DNA of 33,490 bases from a bacterium (GTDB taxonomy: Bacteria > Actinomycetota > Acidimicrobiia > Acidimicrobiales > Bin134), in the NCBI GenBank assembly GCA_026709815.1, contig JAPOSH010000180.1, forward strand, positions 1 through 33,490, given 5' to 3'. Positions 6,797-30,910 of this stretch are shown piece after piece (the stretch's first letter is position 1; each line of letters begins with the position of its first letter). The position numbers and the translations under genes are program-made. The notes beneath the pieces are model-generated. The model was not told where the DNA came from. It did no database searches and worked only from the letters and a program-made list of their open reading frames with translations.

Positions 6797-7591
6797 TCAG
6801 CCCGCTTCGATCCCGGCCTCGTTGAGCAGGGCTCGCAGCGTGCTGGGGAAGGTCTGCCCGATGGCGAATGTCCGGTCATCGGGAACGACTTCTTCGGCCT
6901 CGAACAGCTCTTCGAGGTCATGCAGGTCGGCTTCGCCGGCGCCTCCGAGCTCAACCCGCTCGTAGTAGACCACGGCCAGGATCTCCCGAGCATTCAGCTT
7001 GTCGCCGTTGGAAGGCATGCCGTTGGCTGCTCCCAGTGACACGTCGCCGTCGTCGCCGTAAGGAGTGCCGGGCTCGGCCGGCGAACCGTTGACAACCCAG
7101 ATCACTTGGTCTTCCCAGTCGTTGAACGTGGCCATGACCTCGCCGTCGCTCAGCGCCGGGCCGACCCCGCCACCGCCCTCGGCGCCGTGGCAGCCTGCGC
7201 AGCCCCCGGCGCCCTCGTAGACCTCCCGGCCCAGGGCGATGATCTCGCTGTCGCGCTCTGGGGCCTCCAGAGTGCCGGCGAAGATGATGGCCCAGAACGG
7301 CAGGAACAGAAGCACTGGCACGGCCCAGAACGGGATCTTCTTGCGGGTCAGCGCGGCCTGCACCCACGGCTTTGTCGGCTCCGGCTGCGGTTCGGGCGCC
7401 GGCTCCAAGTCGGGAAGCTCGGGCAAAGAGGGGGTCGTCGCAGCCGCCGGCGCCTGGGCTTGGGCCACCGCGGGAGCAGCCGAGGTCTGCGCCGGTGGGA
7501 CCTCGACAACCGGCTCCTCGCCGAGGGTAGCGCCGAGGTCTTTGCGGCGATCCCGCGATCGTTGCAGCAGATGCTCTGGTACTTCTACCAA
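6797..7591 (-). CDS. Membrane-anchored monoheme cytochrome c with proline-rich cytoplasmic N-terminus
   Basis: A 264-residue protein from a TTG start at 7591, chosen because AGGAGG stands 4 bases upstream. An in-frame ATG or GTG start further up would lack this site. Residues 3-8 are VPEHLL followed by an Arg-rich stretch. Residues about 25-75 are Ala/Pro/Glu-rich, a single transmembrane helix spans about 86-107, and the heme-binding C131-AG-C134-H135 follows. M192 in NGMPSNGDK is a plausible axial ligand. Residues after about 215 are an acidic tail not usual for small cytochromes. The heme domain should face outside. It is divergent from the bc-type operon and shares its N-terminal motif with the subunit IV protein at 10228, so it probably belongs to the same electron-transfer chain. 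Its partner is unknown. Confidence 0.85.
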   Translation of the reverse strand: MVEVPEHLLQRSRDRRKDLGATLGEEPVVEVPPAQTSAAPAVAQAQAPAAATTPSLPELPDLEPAPEPQPEPTKPWVQAALTRKKIPFWAVPVLLFLPFWAIIFAGTLEAPERDSEIIALGREVYEGAGGCAGCHGAEGGGGVGPALSDGEVMATFNDWEDQVIWVVNGSPAEPGTPYGDDGDVSLGAANGMPSNGDKLNAREILAVVYYERVELGGAGEADLHDLEELFEAEEVVPDDRTFAIGQTFPSTLRALLNEAGIEAG

Positions 7592-7595
7592 CGCT

Positions 7596-7601
7596 CCTCC
7601 T
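7596..7601 (-). promoter_or_regulatory. Shine-Dalgarno site fixing the TTG start of the cytochrome c gene
   Basis: On the minus strand AGGAGG is followed by AGCG and then TTG (7591-7589). It is the strongest ribosome binding site seen near this gene and outweighs the longer reading from 7621. Confidence 0.7.
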
Positions 7602-7694
7602 GTATGACTCTGGGCCGGCACAGCCTCCGGCCCCGCGCCACATTACGCCCGCCCAACACCAACGGCCTAACTATGAGCTTCCTCCCAATGCTGT

Positions 7695-8356: not shown

Positions 8357-8941
8357 GTGGCCGCGAACAGGCCCATAGACATCGCCGTCACCAAGTTCTA
8401 CAAGGCCCTCGGGGGATGTTTCGTCCTCTATCTGGCGCTGTGGGCCTTCATCGCCGTCCACCAGTACGACGAGGGCCTGGGGGCGCCGTACTTCAACGTG
8501 GCCTTCACCGCCTCTTTGGTGGTAACCGTGCTGGCTGTCGTGGCCTTCTTGGAGTACGCCCGCCGCCGGCCGGTGGGCAAGTACCACACCTGGGGCGAAG
8601 CCATGCTGGGCGCGGCGCTGGTCTTCTTCTTGCTCTTCTGGGTGTATGGCGTGGTGCCCCATCAATGGCTGGTTTACGCCGACAGCGAGCTCGGGTGGCG
8701 CAAAGACCGCTTGGTGGAGGGCTACCACGTGGGCAATCAGGGCATCATCGCCTGGGCACTCCCCTTCGATCTCCCCTACTTGGTAGTGCGCGACGTGGTC
8801 GCGGTGCTGATCTACGGTTTGGCCTTGGCCGGCAACATCGCGGGCTGGATGGTGTGGCAGAACCGGGGCAAGACGGCGCCAGTCGAGGTGGAGAAGTCCG
8901 AGTACGGGCGACCGATTGTGAGAGAGGGGGCGAGTGTCTGA
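8357..8941 (+). CDS. Four-helix membrane protein, first gene of the b6f-like cluster
   Basis: A 194-residue protein from the GTG at 8357, preceded by AAGGGGAGGA. An ATG at 8303 is in frame but gives an unlikely N-terminus without a ribosome site. Hydrophobic helices lie at about 16-34, 46-65, 80-100 and 145-165. Loops contain several His and aromatic residues (VHQYDEG, KYHTWGEAM, VPHQWLVY, EGYHVGN), and the tail is charged. I do not recognise the family. The stop overlaps the ATG of the ferredoxin gene (TGATG), so the two are translationally coupled. With the cytochrome b, Rieske and cytochrome c genes downstream, it is probably a subunit or accessory of the quinol oxidase, perhaps the membrane dock of the ferredoxin. 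The His residues could bind heme, but no classical pair is clear. Confidence 0.75.
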   Translation: MAANRPIDIAVTKFYKALGGCFVLYLALWAFIAVHQYDEGLGAPYFNVAFTASLVVTVLAVVAFLEYARRRPVGKYHTWGEAMLGAALVFFLLFWVYGVVPHQWLVYADSELGWRKDRLVEGYHVGNQGIIAWALPFDLPYLVVRDVVAVLIYGLALAGNIAGWMVWQNRGKTAPVEVEKSEYGRPIVREGASV

Positions 8942-9357
8942 TGGCCGGCACCGATGCCAACCCCCCTATGCCGGAGTTCCGCGACGACTACGTGCTGGTT
9001 GAGGTGGACAACGACTACCTCCAGAGCAAGGTGAAGCCCAAGCAGTTCATCCACATCGACCAGTCCGAGTGCATCATGTGCGAAGGCTGCGTGGACATCT
9101 GCCCGTGGAAGTGCATCCACATGGTGGCGCCCGATGCGGTGGACATGGCGGTGGGCGCCGAGCAGCCCGGCGTCGATCCCAGCGACCACGTGATCTTCAC
9201 CATCGACGAGGACGCCTGCACCCGGTGCGCGCTGTGCGTGGACCGGTGTCCCACCGGCGTGATCACGCTGGGCCGACTGGGCGACCCCGGCGGCGATGGC
9301 GACCCGCATCAGCGGATGGGCAGCTACGGCTACGGCTACGGCATGCGGTTGGCCTAG
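8941..9357 (+). CDS. 2x[4Fe-4S] ferredoxin-type protein of the b6f-like cluster
   Basis: A 138-residue soluble iron-sulfur protein. The first cluster motif is C44-IM-C47-EG-C50-VDI-C54-P and the second C93-TR-C96-AL-C99-VDR-C103-P, so two [4Fe-4S] clusters are expected. An extra Cys58 follows the first motif. The N-terminal 40 residues have a VLVEVDND stretch, a loop of about 30 residues separates the motifs, and the tail is Gly/Tyr-rich (GSYGYGYG). No secretion signal is visible, so it should act in the cytoplasm. It resembles NuoI-like and 8Fe ferredoxins. Its placement directly before cytochrome b suggests electron exchange with the quinone pool or the complex; this is inference, since no such subunit exists in standard bc1 or b6f complexes. 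Confidence 0.9.
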   Translation: MAGTDANPPMPEFRDDYVLVEVDNDYLQSKVKPKQFIHIDQSECIMCEGCVDICPWKCIHMVAPDAVDMAVGAEQPGVDPSDHVIFTIDEDACTRCALCVDRCPTGVITLGRLGDPGGDGDPHQRMGSYGYGYGMRLA

Positions 9358-9399: not shown

Positions 9400-10185
9400 G
9401 TGGCAAAGCAGCCAAGACCGCCGGCGAGCGAGCGAGCCAAGCAGGCTATGAGCGGCATGATGAGCAATGTCCAGGGGTCGCAGGCCTGGTCGTCGATCTT
9501 CCGCCCCGGCTCCATCTTCCGCAAGGGCTACAGCGACAGCCCCCGGAACCGCAGCTACGTGATCATGAACAGCGTGCTGTACCACCTGCACCCGGTGAAG
9601 GTGAAGCGCCACGCGGTGAAGGTCAGCTACACCCTGTGCTTGGGCGGTCTCAGCTTCTTCTTGTTCATCCTGCTCACCGTGACCGGCATCTTCTTGATGT
9701 TCTTCTACCGGCCCACCGCAGCGCAGGCTTGGGACGACATCTACACCCTCCAAACCTCGGTTGCGTTCGGGCTTTTGGTGCGCAACATGCACCGATGGGC
9801 CGCCCATCTCATGGTCATCGCCGTGTTCTTGCACATGGCCCGGGTGTTCTACCACGGGGCCTACAAGCCGCCCCGAGAGTTCAACTGGGTCATCGGGGTC
9901 ATCCTTTTGACCCTCACCCTGCTGTTGTCGTTCACCGGGTATCTGCTCCCGTGGGATCAGCTGGCCTTGTGGGCGGTGACGGTGGGCACCAACATGATGG
10001 GGTTCACCCCGGTATTCGGCGATCAAGTGCGCTTCGTGCTGCTCGGAAGCGTGGAGATCGGCACCGACACGCTGCTGCGATGGTATGTGCTGCACGTGCT
10101 GATGCTGCCCTTCGTGATCGTCATATTCATGGCCATCCACTTCTGGCGAGTGAGAAAGGACGGAGGTATTTCCGGACCGCTCTAA
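9400..10185 (+). CDS. Cytochrome b6-like subunit with predicted covalent heme c site
   Basis: A 261-residue protein from the GTG at 9400, with four transmembrane helices after a 70-residue basic N-terminus. Heme ligands are H131/H145 (13 residues between) in [16 protein letters not shown] and H232/H247 (14 between). That spacing is the cytochrome b6 pattern. C80, in [10 protein letters not shown], lies exactly 51 residues before the first heme His, as Cys35 does in cytochrome b6, and FYRPT and PREFNW also match b6. A high-spin heme c on the stromal-like side is therefore predicted. The C-terminal helices are encoded separately at 10228, unlike the fused QcrB of most Actinobacteria. It should oxidise menaquinol together with the Rieske protein at 11024. 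Confidence 0.95.
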
Positions 10186-10227: not shown

Positions 10228-10998
10228 ATGGCGGAAGTCCCCGAACACCTCTTAAAACGAGCCCAACAAGCCCGTGACCGCGCCCAAGCCCAAAAGGGCG
10301 GCGGCGATGCGGTCGCGCCCGAATCCTCGGGCGCCCCGGCCTCGGGGCCCTCAACCGGCCCGAAGATCCCCGACCACCTGCTGGACCGCTCCAAGTCGGC
10401 CCGCCAGCAGGCTGCGTCCGCCGGCACCGCCCCGGCGACCGCGGCGGCGGCCACCGCGCCGATGCCCGTCGGCCCGGCCGCCCCTGAGCCCACCGGTCCC
10501 GGGGGCGGTACCCAACGACTCCTCACCGTGGTCAAGTCGGGCTCCATCCAAGACGTCAAAGCCACCCCCACCGACAAGGTCCACGTGTGGCCTCACCTGC
10601 TGGTGGTGGAGTTCGTGGCCGCGCTGGTTGTCACCGCTTTCACCCTTATCTTCGCCATCTTCGTGAACGCCCCGCTGCTGGAGCTGGCCAACTTCAACGA
10701 GACGCCCAACCCGTCCAAAGCCCCGTGGTACTTCCTCGGCCTCCAAGAGCTGCTCACCATGTTCCATCCCATGGTGGCGGGGGTGACCATTCCTGGCATC
10801 GCCCTGTTCCTGCTGATCTTGGCGCCGTATGTAGACCGCGGTCCCGGAAAGAGGCCCGAAGATCGCAAGTTCGCCATCTCGCTCATGACCATCCACCTGA
10901 TGTTCTGGGCCATCCTGGTTCTCATCGGATCCTTCTTCAGAGGTCCCGGTTTCAACTTCGTCTTCCCGTGGGAAGCCGGGTTGTTCTTCGACCTCTAA
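10228..10998 (+). CDS. Subunit IV-like cytochrome b C-terminal subunit with VPEHLL-motif extension
   Basis: A 256-residue protein. Residues about 118-256 are the cytochrome b C-terminal/PetD-type domain, with helices at about 121-146, 182-200 and 218-238. The Qo-site motif usually PEWY reads A165-P-W-Y168 in NPSKAPWYFLGLQE, so the usual glutamate is absent. The first 115 residues are an Ala/Pro-rich extension not present in plant subunit IV. They carry two copies of a short motif, VPEHLLKRAQQARD (4-17) and IPDHLLDRSKSARQ (47-60). The same motif begins the cytochrome c encoded at 7591. The extension should lie in the cytoplasm and may bind a common partner. The start follows the cytochrome b6-like gene by 42 bases. 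Confidence 0.92.
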   Translation: MAEVPEHLLKRAQQARDRAQAQKGGGDAVAPESSGAPASGPSTGPKIPDHLLDRSKSARQQAASAGTAPATAAAATAPMPVGPAAPEPTGPGGGTQRLLTVVKSGSIQDVKATPTDKVHVWPHLLVVEFVAALVVTAFTLIFAIFVNAPLLELANFNETPNPSKAPWYFLGLQELLTMFHPMVAGVTIPGIALFLLILAPYVDRGPGKRPEDRKFAISLMTIHLMFWAILVLIGSFFRGPGFNFVFPWEAGLFFDL

Positions 10999-11023: not shown

Positions 11024-11896
11024 ATGGGCGTCGCACTCTCCATCGCCATACCGATCATCGTCATCGCCGCGGTGATCGTGTTGATCGGCGCGGCCCGCCG
11101 CCGGGAGACCATGGCGGCCGAGGGGCGGCTGGGCCGGGAGACCCGCCGTCGGGACCGGGGACGGGTGGACATCGTCGATCGGCCCGGAGCAGCCGACGCC
11201 CCCACCGGCAAAGAGGTGGAGCGGGCCGCGGTGATCGCTCGCCAGCAGGCAGGCGCCGATTTAGTGGAGGCAGCCGACGCATCGCTACGGGAGTGGACGC
11301 CGCCCGATCCCGCCGCCGTCGGGGTGAGCCGCCGGCAGTTCTTGAACCGCAGCACCGTGGCCATGATGGGCTTCGGCCTCACCGGTTTCGGCGCCGCCTG
11401 CGTGGCCTTTCTGTGGCCGCCGTTCGTCACCGGCTTCGGCGCCGATGTGAACGCGGGCTCGGTGGAGAAGCTCAAGTCTGACATCCAGGGCTCCAACGGC
11501 TTTCTCTACCGCGCTGACGCCCGGGCCTGGATCACCGAGTACCCCGCAGCTGCGTTGCCCAAGGCGCAGGCCGCGTACAGCGCCCCGGAGTTGTCCGGCA
11601 TGGAGGCGGGTCTCCTCGCCCTGTTCCAGAAATGCCCGCACTTGGGCTGTCGGGTGCCGTCGTGCGTGACCTCGCAGTGGTTCGAGTGCCCCTGCCACGG
11701 TTCCCGCTACAACCAGGCCGGTGAGAAGCGGGGCGGGCCGGCCCCCCGGGGCATGGACCGGTTCGCCATGTCGGTGAATTCGAAAGGGGAGTTCATCATC
11801 CGCACCGGCACCGTGATCGACGGGCCGCCCATCGGGGTGAACACCACCGGCCAAGAGCCTGAAGGCCCGAGCTGTCTTGGGGGGGCATCGCACTGA
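11024..11896 (+). CDS. Rieske [2Fe-2S] protein of the b6f-like complex
   Basis: A 290-residue protein with two hydrophobic segments, at 3-22 and about 111-133. Between them is a charged cytoplasmic-type region. The second segment follows SRRQFLNRS, a twin-arginine-like signal typical of Rieske proteins. The cluster is bound by C204-P-H206 (in CPHLGC) and C222-P-C-H225 (in CPCHGS), with C209 and C224 forming the expected disulfide. RYNQAGEKRGGPAPRGMDRF is the usual proline loop region. The protein accepts the first electron from menaquinol and passes it to the diheme cytochrome c encoded next. The extra first helix makes it longer than plant Rieske proteins and resembles the multi-helix actinobacterial type. 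The stop overlaps the next ATG (TGATG). Confidence 0.95.
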   Translation: MGVALSIAIPIIVIAAVIVLIGAARRRETMAAEGRLGRETRRRDRGRVDIVDRPGAADAPTGKEVERAAVIARQQAGADLVEAADASLREWTPPDPAAVGVSRRQFLNRSTVAMMGFGLTGFGAACVAFLWPPFVTGFGADVNAGSVEKLKSDIQGSNGFLYRADARAWITEYPAAALPKAQAAYSAPELSGMEAGLLALFQKCPHLGCRVPSCVTSQWFECPCHGSRYNQAGEKRGGPAPRGMDRFAMSVNSKGEFIIRTGTVIDGPPIGVNTTGQEPEGPSCLGGASH

Positions 11897-13227
11897 TGCC
11901 GCTGTTCGCCGCTTCAACCCAGCGCAATCTGGGCATGGCCATCGCGGTGGTGGCCATCGTGGGCTTCGCCGTCTACCTCATCTACAACGTGTTGTGGGCC
12001 GGCCGGGGTGAAAAGGGCGCCGAGCTGGATCTCGCCCCCAACCGCAAGCCCTACCTCAGCGACGAGGAACTGGAGACCAAAAAGCTCGACCTTGCCTTGG
12101 TCAGCGGCCTGGTCACCCTGGTCATCATCGGCGTGGCCCTGCCGCTGTACTGGCTGGGCGAGCCCGGACGCCAGCAGGGCTATGTGGACTACTCGCGAGA
12201 GCAGTTCACCAGCCGGGGCGCCGGCCTGTACGAAGAGTCCTGCTCCAGCTGCCACGGCGGCGGCGGCCTCGGCGGCAGCACCGACCACACCGTGACTGAC
12301 GACAACGGTAACTTCGTGGCCGCCATAAAGTGGGCGGCCCCTCCGCTGACCACCACGCTGTACCGCTTCTCCGAAGAAGAGGTGCGCCATGTTCTGAACT
12401 ACGGCCGGCCGCCCACCCCCATGCAAGCCTGGGGCGAGCCTGGCGGCGGCCCGCTCACCTCTCAGCAGGTCGACGAGCTGATCCAGTACATCCAAAGCAT
12501 CCAGCTCACCCCGAACGAGGTGCAGGGCGAGGTGCTGGACGGCCTGGTGCTTCAGGTTCGAGAAGACGTCTTGGCCGCCGACGGCGCGCTGCGCGACCGA
12601 CTGGAAGCGGCCAACGCCGCCGTGGCGGCCGCGGGTGCCGATGAGAGCGCCGCGGAGGTGGCCGCTCGCAACCTCGCAGCCCTCGAGGAGGAGCTGCGAG
12701 AGGTGAGCGAGCAGCACATACGCGACCTTGCGCCGTCTGACCGGGGTGAGCTGCTGTTCAACAACGGAGTGCACGGCTGTGCCCGCTGCCATACGCCTCG
12801 GGACTCCTGGCAGTTCACCGGGCCGGAAGAAGAACCGGGCGCCGGCCCGGTCACCCTGGAGAGGGGTTCTGAGGCCGAAGCCGAGACGGTGGCCCGACTG
12901 GGCGGTTTGATCCCCGCCTACATCCCCGGCGGCGGCGGGTTCGGGCCCAACCTCACCAACGGCGCCACCCTCCGGCAGTTCGACAGCGCCGAGGGCCATG
13001 CCGGATTCATCATTGTCGGCTCTCAGGAGGGTGTGGGTTACGGCAATTTCGGCCAGGGCGACGGCGGGGGCCAGATGCCGGCCTTCGGCGTCTGCGTGGG
13101 CGACCGGGACTCGGGCGAGCGCAGCCCCATCTTCGGATTCTGCACCCTCACCGATGGCAGCGCCCGACCGGGCACGCTGACCGCCGAGCAGATCGACGAC
13201 ATCGTGGCCTACGAGCGGGGAATGTGA
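11896..13227 (+). CDS. Membrane-bound diheme cytochrome c
   Basis: A 443-residue protein with hydrophobic helices at about 12-33 and 66-87, then two class I-like heme domains. Motif 1 is C116-SS-C119-H120, with M176 (PPTPMQAWG) as a plausible sixth ligand. Motif 2 is C295-AR-C298-H299, with the Met in GGGQMPAFG near the C-terminus. Residues about 205-280 between them are Glu/Ala/Leu-rich and probably helical or coiled-coil. It replaces cytochrome c1/f as electron acceptor of the Rieske protein, as in Gram-positive bc complexes with diheme subunits. The C-terminal domain has a long Gly-rich insertion (PGGGGFGPNLTNG). The stop overlaps the following GTG. Confidence 0.92.
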   Translation: MPLFAASTQRNLGMAIAVVAIVGFAVYLIYNVLWAGRGEKGAELDLAPNRKPYLSDEELETKKLDLALVSGLVTLVIIGVALPLYWLGEPGRQQGYVDYSREQFTSRGAGLYEESCSSCHGGGGLGGSTDHTVTDDNGNFVAAIKWAAPPLTTTLYRFSEEEVRHVLNYGRPPTPMQAWGEPGGGPLTSQQVDELIQYIQSIQLTPNEVQGEVLDGLVLQVREDVLAADGALRDRLEAANAAVAAAGADESAAEVAARNLAALEEELREVSEQHIRDLAPSDRGELLFNNGVHGCARCHTPRDSWQFTGPEEEPGAGPVTLERGSEAEAETVARLGGLIPAYIPGGGGFGPNLTNGATLRQFDSAEGHAGFIIVGSQEGVGYGNFGQGDGGGQMPAFGVCVGDRDSGERSPIFGFCTLTDGSARPGTLTAEQIDDIVAYERGM

Positions 13228-14366
13228 GCATGGGCCCGGTCGTTTCCGCCGCAGGCGCTCTCGGGGCTATCTCGTTCGACAACGAGATCCGCGGCCTTTT
13301 GACCGTTCTGCTGGGGTGCGCCGTCCTCATGGGATCGGTGTGGCTCATCATCTCCACCAACACCGGCTTTCGCCTCGGCACCCTTATCGCCATATCGGCC
13401 ATCTTCGGGTGGACGGTGATGATGGCGTTCCTCTGGGCGCTGTACGGCATCGGCCTTCAGGGGGCCCGCCCCACCTGGGAGGTGCAAGCCATCCACATCG
13501 GCAACCCCTCGGTGTCGGACAACGAGGCCGATCCGCCCCCGGCGATCCTCGACGATCTACCCAATCCGGTTACCTGCGCCGCCTTAGGCGACGGCGACTG
13601 CCTGCCCAAGGCCATCGAGGTCGTGCGGGAGATGGGCAGCAGCGCCCAGAGAGCCAACCTGGATTCGATCGACGCCAGCGCCATCCGAGCCAACGTGGTG
13701 ACCTTCAACGATGCGCTGGCCGATGGCGATCCCCGCAAGCTGGTCGGGGCCGGGATCGATGACGAGGTGCAGCGGCTGGTCGAGGAGCAGCGCATTCGCA
13801 ACGAGGATCTGACCCTGAGCGAGCTGAAAGGCGTCGCCCCCGAGCTCACCGAAGAGGCCGAGCGCCGGGGCTGGCTGGAGACGGGCGACTGGAACCTGGA
13901 GACCACCCAGGCCGCGGGGGAGGCCATCACCGCGGCCAGCGACTATCTCGCCCAGGCCGATTTGGGCTTCCGCGCCACCGACGAGCAGAGCAACTCCTTC
14001 GTGGTCCTCGATGCCTTCCAGCAGGGGGGCAAGCCCGAACGGCTCAACAACGGGGTGTGGGAGCGGGTCAGCAACAAGATCATCACCAGTGCCATGCCCC
14101 GCCATCCCGCCAACTACACGGTGGTGCAGGTTCAGCGTTCCACATATCAGGATCCGGTGGCCGGCCAAGCGCCGCCTCCGGTTCAGGTAGATCCCGAAGA
14201 ACCGGTCATCTCGGTGCTCATGGAGCGAAACCTGGGCCGGTTCCGCCTGCCGAGTATTCTGGTGACCATCGGCGCGGGGTTGTTGTTCTTGGTCTCTCTG
14301 CTGATGCTCCACACCCGCGATCTGGAAGTCCGCCGCCGTTTGGAGGGCGAGGGCGCAATATCATGA
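13224..14366 (+). CDS. Unrecognised three-helix membrane protein linking the b6f-like and nuo genes
   Basis: A 380-residue protein beginning at GTG 13224 (overlapping the cytochrome stop) or ATG 13230. Two hydrophobic helices lie at about 24-45 and 50-72, then a 270-residue acidic, mostly soluble domain, then one helix at about 343-363 and a basic tail. There are only two Cys, in the NPVTCAALGDGDCLPKAIEV segment, and no heme, iron-sulfur or nucleotide motif that I can see. The soluble domain should be exported and may carry a disulfide. Translational coupling to the diheme cytochrome gene suggests a structural or assembly subunit of the complex. I do not know its family, and no functional name is justified. 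Confidence 0.75.
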   Translation: MSMGPVVSAAGALGAISFDNEIRGLLTVLLGCAVLMGSVWLIISTNTGFRLGTLIAISAIFGWTVMMAFLWALYGIGLQGARPTWEVQAIHIGNPSVSDNEADPPPAILDDLPNPVTCAALGDGDCLPKAIEVVREMGSSAQRANLDSIDASAIRANVVTFNDALADGDPRKLVGAGIDDEVQRLVEEQRIRNEDLTLSELKGVAPELTEEAERRGWLETGDWNLETTQAAGEAITAASDYLAQADLGFRATDEQSNSFVVLDAFQQGGKPERLNNGVWERVSNKIITSAMPRHPANYTVVQVQRSTYQDPVAGQAPPPVQVDPEEPVISVLMERNLGRFRLPSILVTIGAGLLFLVSLLMLHTRDLEVRRRLEGEGAIS

Positions 14367-28071: not shown

Positions 28072-29567
28072 TGCTCCCGCTCCTGGCTCAGGCAGAAATC
28101 CCCGACATCGCGTGGCTCCCCTTGGTGCCCCACATGGTGATGGCCGGGGCTGCGGTGCTGTTGTTGACCATCGTGTCGCTGGCCGGAGGCCGGCTGCCGA
28201 AGTGGTTTGCCTCGGCGTGGACGACAGCCGCGGGTCTGGGAGTGATGGCCACCGCTATTCCGGTGTGGATACGGGTATGGCGACGAGGTCCCCACTCGAC
28301 CATCGCCGACTCGATCGGGGTGGACGGGTTCTCGGTATTCATCATCGTGCTGCTGGCCGCCACGGTGATCTTGACCGCTCTCATCGCCGACGGGTTCCTG
28401 CGCCGGGAGGGCGTCGACGGCCCGGCTTTCTACGTGCTGTTGATGTTCTCGGCTGCCGGCGGCATGACCATGGCGGTGGCCGACAACCTCATCGTGTTGT
28501 TCTTGGGCCTGGAGATCCTGTCATTGGCGGTGTATGTGCTGGTGGCCATGCACCTGCGCCGGGCCGAGTCGCAGGAGGCGGGCATCAAGTACTTCGTGCT
28601 GGGGGCGTTCGCCTCGGCGTTCCTGCTCTACGGCATCGCCCTGGTGTACGGCGCCACCGGATCGCTCAACCTGTACGCCATCGCAGGGATGGTCGACGAC
28701 GATCTGAGCGATAACGGCCTGTTGCTGGCCGGCATGGCCATGTTGCTGGTGGGGCTGGGGTTCAAGGTGGCCGCGGTGCCGTTCCACGCTTGGACTCCCG
28801 ACGTCTACCAGGGGGCACCCTCGCCGGTGGTGTCCTACATGGCCGCCGGGGTGAAGGCGGCCGGGTTCGCGGCGCTGCTTCGGGTGTTCGTCGGCGGCTT
28901 CGGGGGATTGGCCGGCGATTGGCAGCCGGTGGTGTTCGGACTGGCCGTCGCCAGCCTGGCCGTCGGGTCGATGCTGGCCATCGTGCAGACCGACGTCAAG
29001 CGGATCTTGGCCTATTCCTCTATCAGCCATGCCGGGTTCATCCTCGTCGGGGTGCAGGCCGCCACCGATGACGGAGTGTCCAGCGTGCTGTTCTACCTGG
29101 CCGCCTACGCCGCCATGGCCATCGGCAGCTTCGCGGTGATCACCGTGGTGAGCGGCCCGGGCGACGAGGGCGCCGGCATCGACGGCTTGCGGGGCTTGGC
29201 CGCCCGCCGTCCGCTTTTGGCCGCCGCCTTCACCGTGCTGTTGCTGTCGCAGGCCGGCATCCCGTTCACCGCCGGGTTCTGGGCCAAGTTCGAGGTGATC
29301 TCGGCCGCGGTGGACGCACGCTCCTTCTGGCTGGCGGTCATCGCCATGCTGGCCGCCGTGGTGGCTGCCTTCTTGTATTTGCGGATCGTGGTGGCCATGT
29401 TCCTAGATGCCCCCGATGCCGGTGCCCCCCGCCTGCGCATCCCCCGGAGCCCCGCACTGGCCATCGCCATCGTGGTGCTGTTCACCCTGGCCTTCGGCGT
29501 CTACCCCGAACCCCTCCTCAACCTAGCCGACGACGCCCTCTTCAACCTCTGGCTCACCCCCCGGTAA
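28071..29567 (+). CDS. nuoN: NADH-quinone oxidoreductase subunit N
   Basis: Antiporter-like subunit, 498 residues and about 14 helices. GLEILSLAVYVLVAM carries the conserved Glu, GFKVAAVPFHAWTPDVYQGAP the channel Lys, and LAYSSISHAGFILVGV is the discontinuous-helix motif. It completes the nuoA-N set. The last 67 bases are overlapped antisense by the methyltransferase gene. No terminator-like hairpin is evident after the stop. Confidence 0.97.
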   Translation: MLPLLAQAEIPDIAWLPLVPHMVMAGAAVLLLTIVSLAGGRLPKWFASAWTTAAGLGVMATAIPVWIRVWRRGPHSTIADSIGVDGFSVFIIVLLAATVILTALIADGFLRREGVDGPAFYVLLMFSAAGGMTMAVADNLIVLFLGLEILSLAVYVLVAMHLRRAESQEAGIKYFVLGAFASAFLLYGIALVYGATGSLNLYAIAGMVDDDLSDNGLLLAGMAMLLVGLGFKVAAVPFHAWTPDVYQGAPSPVVSYMAAGVKAAGFAALLRVFVGGFGGLAGDWQPVVFGLAVASLAVGSMLAIVQTDVKRILAYSSISHAGFILVGVQAATDDGVSSVLFYLAAYAAMAIGSFAVITVVSGPGDEGAGIDGLRGLAARRPLLAAAFTVLLLSQAGIPFTAGFWAKFEVISAAVDARSFWLAVIAMLAAVVAAFLYLRIVVAMFLDAPDAGAPRLRIPRSPALAIAIVVLFTLAFGVYPEPLLNLADDALFNLWLTPR

Positions 29568-30910
29568 CCGGCCAACGCGCTCAACGCAGCCGCGTAACCC
29601 AGGGGCATCGGCACAGCGTCACCGATCCACTTAGCGAGTTGAGACCGAGATGGTGATGCCCCAGATTCTGTGATGAAACGGTAGTCAAGAGGGAACCCTT
29701 GAATTACTGCCGCTTCGCGCGGAGTAAGTGTACGACGTTCTGTTGGGTGGATGAAGCGGCCTCGGCCTGGAGTGGTAAAGCCTGTTGTGATGGTAGGAGC
29801 AGGCTCATTGGGACGCATCCGACCGTATACCGACGTATAGCTTGTGCCTTCTTTGTGGCACTCAGGGCGCTCGGATAGCGCTAAATCATACTCATCGTTG
29901 TCGAAAAGCCAGTCAATCCGTCTCTGATTCTCCTCATTATGTTCCGTCGACTGATCCAGCGGATCTGCAGGATCAGCAGGCCAAGCGTCTAGGTGGCTCA
30001 GTGCCCACTCCAGAGTGCGGGGTTTTTTGTCGGCCAAGCATTCCGCTATCGACTCTAGCGGTATTGGCTCTGAGTGGCGGCATGCTACCATGAAGTACCG
30101 CTTCCGGGTTTGTGGCCAGCCCATCTTGTCACAAGCCAGTACGCCGTCAGTCACCTGATAGCCCACCGACTCTAGTAGCGCTCTCGTGGTGGCGATAACA
30201 CTGGCGTCGTCGTGTACTACAGCGGGCACGTTTTCGATTAGCACTCGGTCGATCTTGGCAGCCACTGCGAAAGCGGGGACAGTAAGCAAGAGGTGGTTTC
30301 GCATGTCAGATCTTCGCGATCGATTATTCAAGTTCGAATGGCCTTGACATGGCGGTCCAGCGGTCAGCAGGTCAGCTCGACAGGCAGCGTCGGCCAGTTC
30401 ATCGTCAAGCAGTTCAGGTGCATAGGTAAATGTTGCCGCCTCGCCGCTGCCACGAACTCGAAAGTCGACCAGCGAGGTCACTGAATCGGTACAGCGAAGT
30501 CGTACATCGTGGTTTGCAGCCAACGTTCTAGTAGCATCGACATCTGAGTCCACAATTACTTCGTTGATTACTGAATAGCCCATCTCGTGAGCCAACTGCC
30601 TCACGCCTAAGGCCAGCCCTCCTGATCCACAGAACAGATCAACTACGCCTAGCCAGCTTGTGTCCTGAGCTGAAGAAGGAAGCCTCCCTTCCAAGTAAGC
30701 GGTCCACCACATGCCTAACGGATCTGATCGAGCTGCTCTCTCGTCGCCGGGGTATACCATGACAGATGAATCGATTACCCGCGACCCCAGTGTGAGTCGG
30801 CGGATCAGCCGGTCGGCATCAAAGTGAAAGCTCCGATCAGGCCGTAGCTTATCGAAATGACAGTCATCGATCTGCTGGAGCGAACGAGAGTTAGTCAAGA
30901 CTGTTCTCAT
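29501..30910 (-). CDS. DNA (cytosine-5-)-methyltransferase
   Basis: A 469-residue C5-cytosine methyltransferase. SAM-binding motif I is DLFCGSGGLALG (91-102) and catalytic C188 sits in GPPCQGHSN. ENVP (227-230) is motif VI, QTRKRYF (267-273) motif VIII, and APTITT with RRTLTPREAAVIQGFP and IGDAVPMPLG are motifs IX-X. About 85 N-terminal residues precede motif I. The product methylates cytosine in an unknown sequence, probably protecting host DNA from a partner nuclease. The ATG at 30910 overlaps the upstream gene by 20 bases. The last 20 or so residues (from about RGVSQRLK) are antisense nuoN sequence, so the original C-terminus was probably shorter. Confidence 0.93.
   Translation of the reverse strand: MRTVLTNSRSLQQIDDCHFDKLRPDRSFHFDADRLIRRLTLGSRVIDSSVMVYPGDERAARSDPLGMWWTAYLEGRLPSSAQDTSWLGVVDLFCGSGGLALGVRQLAHEMGYSVINEVIVDSDVDATRTLAANHDVRLRCTDSVTSLVDFRVRGSGEAATFTYAPELLDDELADAACRADLLTAGPPCQGHSNLNNRSRRSDMRNHLLLTVPAFAVAAKIDRVLIENVPAVVHDDASVIATTRALLESVGYQVTDGVLACDKMGWPQTRKRYFMVACRHSEPIPLESIAECLADKKPRTLEWALSHLDAWPADPADPLDQSTEHNEENQRRIDWLFDNDEYDLALSERPECHKEGTSYTSVYGRMRPNEPAPTITTGFTTPGRGRFIHPTERRTLTPREAAVIQGFPLDYRFITESGASPSRSQLAKWIGDAVPMPLGYAAALSALAGYRGVSQRLKRASSARLRRGSG

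Follow-up and report, generated by a model that had tools for sequence, protein, structure and literature searches.

The operon for the b6f-like Rieske/cytochrome b complex of an Acidimicrobiia-type actinobacterium opens with two genes, encoding a four-helix membrane protein (MP) and a 2[4Fe-4S] ferredoxin (FD), which are very probably subunits or obligate partners of the complex. Both lie in a 33,490-nucleotide stretch of contig JAPOSH010000180.1, referred to here as the window. The linkage of MP, FD and cytochrome b is far beyond chance in Actinomycetota, the phylum to which all genome counts and surveys below are confined. FD is likely to stand at the cytoplasmic side of the complex and to exchange electrons with its N-side cofactors. 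The direction of this exchange is the least certain point; input into heme cN and menaquinone is favoured, with at best an even chance of being correct. These readings draw on the gene linkage, the loss of the pair together with the complex, the cluster motifs, the heme-cN cysteine and a homologous reductase domain in the same operon slot, and from these physical binding, location and electron path are inferred. The genes are listed in Table 1.

Table 1. Genes of the b6f-like operon and its divergent neighbour in the window
Feature	Position	Strand	Characteristics
Membrane-anchored monoheme c-type cytochrome, divergent	6797..7621	-	Conserved neighbour
MP, very probably a dedicated accessory subunit of the b6f-like complex	8357..8941	+	No named family; upstream of FD and cytochrome b
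FD, 2[4Fe-4S] ferredoxin	8941..9357	+	N-terminal extension DY..EVD...L...VKPKQF; C-terminal GY.YGMR tail; Fer4; homology to paralogue reductase
b6-type cytochrome b (petB/ExtP-like)	9400..10185	+	Four heme b His ligands; Cys80 at the b6 heme-cN position
Subunit IV (petD/ExtQ-like)	10228..10998	+	Long cytoplasmic N-terminal region; APWYF Qo motif; invariant Glu128 near the heme-cN/Qn site
Rieske [2Fe-2S] protein	11024..11896	+	CPHLGC ... CPCHGSRY
Membrane-anchored c-type cytochrome subunit	11896..13227	+	Two CxxCH motifs
Conserved membrane protein	13224..14366	+	No known family; end of bc genes; kept in 63/80 loci, some of the remaining loci being cut by contig ends

The MP and FD genes

MP starts at a GTG codon preceded by a GGGGAGG ribosome-binding site and comprises 194 codons, ending in a TGA stop (8939-8941). 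As the initial annotation had it, the genes overlap by TGATG, with base 8941 common to the MP stop and the ATG start of FD. FD encodes 138 amino acids up to its stop at 9355-9357, and cytochrome b begins with a GTG 42 bp further on.

AlphaFold2, given 49 aligned sequences, predicts MP helices at residues 6-38, 48-70, 79-110, and 141-171 (mean pLDDT 85, pTM 0.75). The three C-terminal helices form the core among relatives, while the first helix is present in some only, mainly the close relatives of the window. Conserved residues include Trp79, Gly98, Pro101, Asp146, Gln168, and Arg170, as well as a C-terminal S.YGRPLV tail, with TGGYR/K in deep members. By the positive-inside rule, both ends of MP and its RRRP loop would be located on the cytoplasmic side. 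It had been suggested that His-containing loops of MP could bind a cofactor. However, His35, His77, and His124 are local and unconserved, and His102 is replaced by Ser or Asn in deep members, so this suggestion is unsupported and a histidine-bound cofactor in MP is unlikely. The window protein matches no Pfam or NCBIfam family above cut-off. Fold searches likewise gave no solved fold or fold relative that stood out, as the best Foldseek E of 2.2 and the best VIA-align Z of 7.9 are within the noise level that applies to helical bundles.

FD contains two complete CxxCxxCxxxCP motifs, as expected of a bacterial 2[4Fe-4S] ferredoxin, and has many Fer4-family matches. Fer4 is its only domain type and there is no FAD/NAD(P)-binding reductase domain. 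The eight cysteines of the two clusters show no variation, from the window through to deep members of the phylum. The N-terminal extension that precedes the clusters is also conserved across the phylum, with Tyr17 and Val22 invariant and Leu27 and Val-Lys-Pro-Lys (31-34) nearly so, making it a plausible docking element. FD has no evident signal peptide or export signal in its sequence and should therefore be cytoplasmic. Its predicted structure is of low confidence (pLDDT 42). The FD proteins of the nearest named relatives, by which the organism is judged to be of Acidimicrobiia type, are 97% identical. One genome carries two equally scoring FD copies (G376:C1:224482-224892 and 604493-604903), and a search of plasmids and viral contigs found no FD.

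Linkage and loss across the phylum

A scan of genome contigs for FD found MP upstream and cytochrome b downstream in all of the best 80 loci (80/80), typically with 3-20 bp between the matched regions of MP and FD. The converse count begins from the 56 b6-type cytochrome b genes in 149 phylum genomes, of which 52 have FD directly upstream, 49 have MP, and 46 have both. Within these 149 genomes, any FD or MP match that lacked a neighbouring cytochrome b lay at a contig end. The initial annotation described the pair as immediately preceding cytochrome b and named conservation of the gene neighbourhood as one means of checking its proposal, with occurrence mostly away from cytochrome b as a contrary outcome; the counts clearly side with the former. 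An earlier search detected MP in 38/296 phylum genomes, with cytochrome b adjoining at every non-self locus retrieved and FD between the two at all retrieved loci except L024 and L025.

Of 148 class genomes, 126 have MP and 121 have FD; a close b6-type cytochrome b is present in about 124. Nearly all genomes with this cytochrome b also have MP and FD, and the exceptions in the inspected tables are mostly contig ends or losses of FD. In 14 genomes of the same order without MP and FD, cytochrome b is represented solely by a distant QcrB type (E about 1e-21 to 1e-29), indicating that the pair is present and absent together with the b6f-like complex.

FD has been lost with MP still abutting cytochrome b in G383, G318, and the G151 lineage. 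Since MP is retained upon these losses, it is the more constant partner, and the persistence of MP and cytochrome b in several lineages without FD indicates that FD is not essential to the complex. Separate lineages in which FD is gone and MP is retained directly before cytochrome b are seen at L144, L145, and L150. Following FD loss the N-terminus of cytochrome b may be under relaxed conservation, as seen in L145 (6/27 vs. 4/158 elsewhere) but not in L144.

Several unusual loci were also encountered. An apparent natural fusion of FD to cytochrome b in G396 proved to be a frameshift, with the C-terminus of FD out of frame before cytochrome b, and was discounted as evidence. At L143:2251-3474 a frameshift joins FD and cytochrome b, by assembly error or true mutation. 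No genuine FD gene fusion was found. A third class is represented by L147:4264-6397 (-) of G338, where an MP-like gene overlaps a divergent cytochrome b (45%) accompanied by subunit IV, with neither FD nor the heme-cN Cys. An Acidimicrobiia-type operon is also present on a MAG contig labelled Bifidobacterium breve (L083), a record that is probably mislabelled or contaminated.

The b6f-like complex and its neighbours

The cytochrome b of the window is split into b6 and subunit IV, as in b6f, and has both the heme b histidine pairs and the heme-cN cysteine. Its phmmer alignment to solved cytochrome b6 chains spans 187 residues and takes in the heme cN/ci Cys. The heme b ligands His131, His145, His232, and His247 are conserved along with Cys80 in all covered FD-type cytochromes b, and Cys80 is found in 146/146 FD-type cytochromes b vs. 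0/13 others of the same phylum. FD-type sequences also share an invariant His62 in the cytoplasmic stretch at the N-terminus. Position 128 of subunit IV adjoins the position facing heme cN in b6f when aligned by eye. All covered FD-type sequences have Glu there (108/108), and those of the reductase type described below have His (11/11). The Rieske pattern CHGS.Y, found in 84/84 window-type sequences, contains the Ser/Tyr pair typical of high potential.

Plant and cyanobacterial cytochrome b6f shares the split cytochrome b, the four heme b ligands and the heme-cN cysteine with the window complex, but contains cytochrome f. The c-type subunit of the window matches Cytochrome_CBB3/Cytochrom_C and no cytochrome f family, hence the complex is termed b6f-like rather than b6f. 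A ferredoxin link to b6f has long been discussed for cyclic electron flow, and we know of no solved b6f structure with a stable ferredoxin or MP-like subunit. The original view that neither protein is a standard bc1 or b6f subunit is upheld.

Two further systems bear comparison. The window cytochrome b is above the cut-off for ExtP from the selenite/tellurite operon of Geobacter (306 vs. 290 bits), whereas subunit IV is far under that for ExtQ (52 of 150 bits, NCBIfam) and the neighbours are bc and nuo genes, otherwise unlike an ext operon. The actinobacterial QcrABC (bcc complex) carries out the same metabolic step with a different type of cytochrome b, the type found in the same-order genomes that lack the pair. 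The window proteins fall short of all three of its cut-offs (QcrB 118.7/500, QcrA 20.7/275, QcrC 20.8/200 bits).

The divergent genes upstream of MP encode the c-type cytochrome of Table 1 and a relative of MenJ-like menaquinone reductase. The bc genes are followed by nuoA, nuoB, and further nuo genes, among them those of the NADH module (NuoE, F, and G); the organism encodes a complete complex I with this module. Across the phylum, nuo genes are located 3' of the bc genes in 63/80 FD loci, with some of the others cut by contig ends. A C-5 cytosine DNA methylase gene (29501-30910, -) lies downstream of the nuo genes. A peptide, VPEHLLxR[SA], occurs at the N-termini of both the divergent c-type cytochrome (7582, -) and subunit IV, which has two copies (10237 and 10366, +). 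The peptide is found again in relatives and may serve as a shared docking motif.

Reductase-type relatives

A second class of cytochrome b, 46-60% identical, is found in several Actinomycetota. In its operons the FD slot is occupied by a GltD-like NAD(P)/FAD reductase of ~600-800 aa that combines Fer4_20 and Pyr_redox_2 with a 2[4Fe-4S] domain at its C-terminus, on which the FD profile scores 44-65 bits compared with 39 bits for the NuoI of the window. These paralogues (L153-L163, e.g. L154:1295-5512) form Rieske/cytochrome b operons resembling those of Kuenenia. Their gene order is that of the window, with the FD-like domain directly before cytochrome b. However, the domain is fused to the reductase, MP and the heme-cN Cys are absent, and His replaces Glu128 of subunit IV. 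Based on the homology and the identical slot, FD is most plausibly a free-standing version of the ferredoxin portion of such a module, and MP would be a further subunit in the membrane.

Kuenenia stuttgartiensis encodes b6f-like complexes with an Fe-S/FAD NAD(P) reductase (Kuste4569-4574 and Kustd1480-1485; PMC12954380). This reductase is modelled as cytoplasmic, at a distance that would allow electron transfer with heme cN or with an extra heme at the interface; AF3 models place an extra heme on a His from the N-terminal portion of cytochrome b. Electron output to the NAD(P) reductase has been proposed (PMC12954380). Like the window, Kuenenia combines a split b6f-like cytochrome b with an operon-encoded Fe-S protein on the cytoplasmic side, and the electron path proposed there, between heme cN/bN and Fe-S clusters, is also proposed here. 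The differences are considerable. The Kuenenia subunit is a large FAD/NAD(P) reductase, a domain absent from the window, where FD stands alone with the undescribed MP, and the window c-type subunit has two haem motifs as opposed to the hexa- and octaheme subunits of Kuenenia.

These complexes limit the claim that ferredoxin input to such a complex would be new. Extra cytoplasmic Fe-S/NAD(P) reductase subunits are already known from anammox b6f-like complexes (PMC12954380). The open-access literature searched yielded no description of a stand-alone ferredoxin and MP as standard equipment of Acidimicrobiia.

Electron path and direction

The best overall explanation, to which we assign an even chance, adds MP and FD as dedicated subunits to a b6f-like Rieske/cytochrome b complex that oxidises menaquinol, with FD feeding heme cN. 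MP would lie next to cytochrome b6 in the membrane, its conserved basic loop and YGRPLVKKG-type C-terminal tail on the cytoplasmic side, and would help to hold FD at that side. The two [4Fe-4S] clusters of FD would then exchange electrons with heme cN at the Qn site. In the favoured direction, a low-potential cytoplasmic donor would reduce FD, which would pass electrons through heme cN to menaquinone. The outcome would be a respiratory ferredoxin:menaquinone activity attached to the Q-cycle. Input is favoured because the complex retains heme cN and the Glu, as do Qn sites that reduce quinone, and because FD is dispensable for the basic complex. That a permanently bound ferredoxin, held by an undescribed membrane subunit, injects low-potential electrons at heme cN into menaquinone is a tentative proposal and rather more doubtful.

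Two 2-oxoacid:ferredoxin oxidoreductase-type proteins encoded in the genome could reduce ferredoxin. Their phyletic pattern does not co-vary with that of FD, as such enzymes occur in genomes without FD (G166, G210, G220) and were not found in the FD-bearing G102 and G364. Phyletic coupling to this donor was therefore rejected. Of the ferredoxin electron input originally envisaged, a cytoplasmic electron-transfer role is favoured by the homologous reductase domain in the same slot and the strictly conserved heme-cN Cys, whereas the input itself gains no support from a co-varying donor.

The main rival to input retains the same subunits in the same place and reverses the flow. Quinol oxidation at Qp would bifurcate, with one electron passing to the Rieske protein and cytochrome c and the other through the b hemes to FD, which would then reduce cellular ferredoxin or, via another enzyme, NAD(P). 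It owes its rank to the paralogous complexes, which have NAD(P) reductases in the FD slot and are proposed to bifurcate, as put forward for Kuenenia (PMC12954380), and to the high-potential Ser and Tyr of the window-type Rieske protein, which suit output by the argument of the same study (PMC12954380). Nonetheless, output seems unlikely as the heme-cN Cys and Glu128, both missing from the reductase type, are retained in FD-type complexes, suggesting an ordinary Qn site, and with a complete complex I including its NADH module the need for output is not evident.

Ranked third is a structural, assembly, or regulatory role for MP and FD, with FD as a redox sensor or a linker, for instance to complex I, rather than a turnover route. 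The loss of FD while MP remains and the nuo genes that follow the bc genes at most loci would fit such a role; against it stand eight cluster cysteines that are all invariant across the phylum and a homologous domain that is part of a redox enzyme in paralogous operons, and we regard it as improbable. By its core sequence FD is a standard 2[4Fe-4S] ferredoxin and could be an ordinary soluble protein whose gene is merely carried in the operon. This is very improbable given that FD is confined in the 149 genomes to the vicinity of cytochrome b apart from contig ends, is absent where the complex is absent, and has an N-terminal extension conserved across the phylum.

Significance

FD and MP probably form a cytoplasmic plug for electron exchange with the complex. 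The module is a near-constant feature of the b6f-like respiratory complex in a large, mostly uncultured group of soil and marine actinobacteria, and the reductase-type paralogues show that this complex has received different redox modules at its cytoplasmic face. Whether ferredoxin can reduce b6f directly through heme cN has long been an unsettled question in photosynthesis. The presence of a common, genetically fixed ferredoxin beside a heme-cN-type b6 in non-photosynthetic respirers makes this old question testable without photosystems, and at least one carrier organism is an isolate rather than a metagenome bin, cultured Acidimicrobiia being exemplified by strain EGI L10123 (L054). The main respiratory complex of a large class of actinobacteria would also gain two subunits. 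If the proposed input is true, these respirers would have a constitutive equivalent, independent of photosynthesis, of the cyclic electron flow that ferredoxin drives, and it would be standard equipment in Acidimicrobiia and several related lineages.
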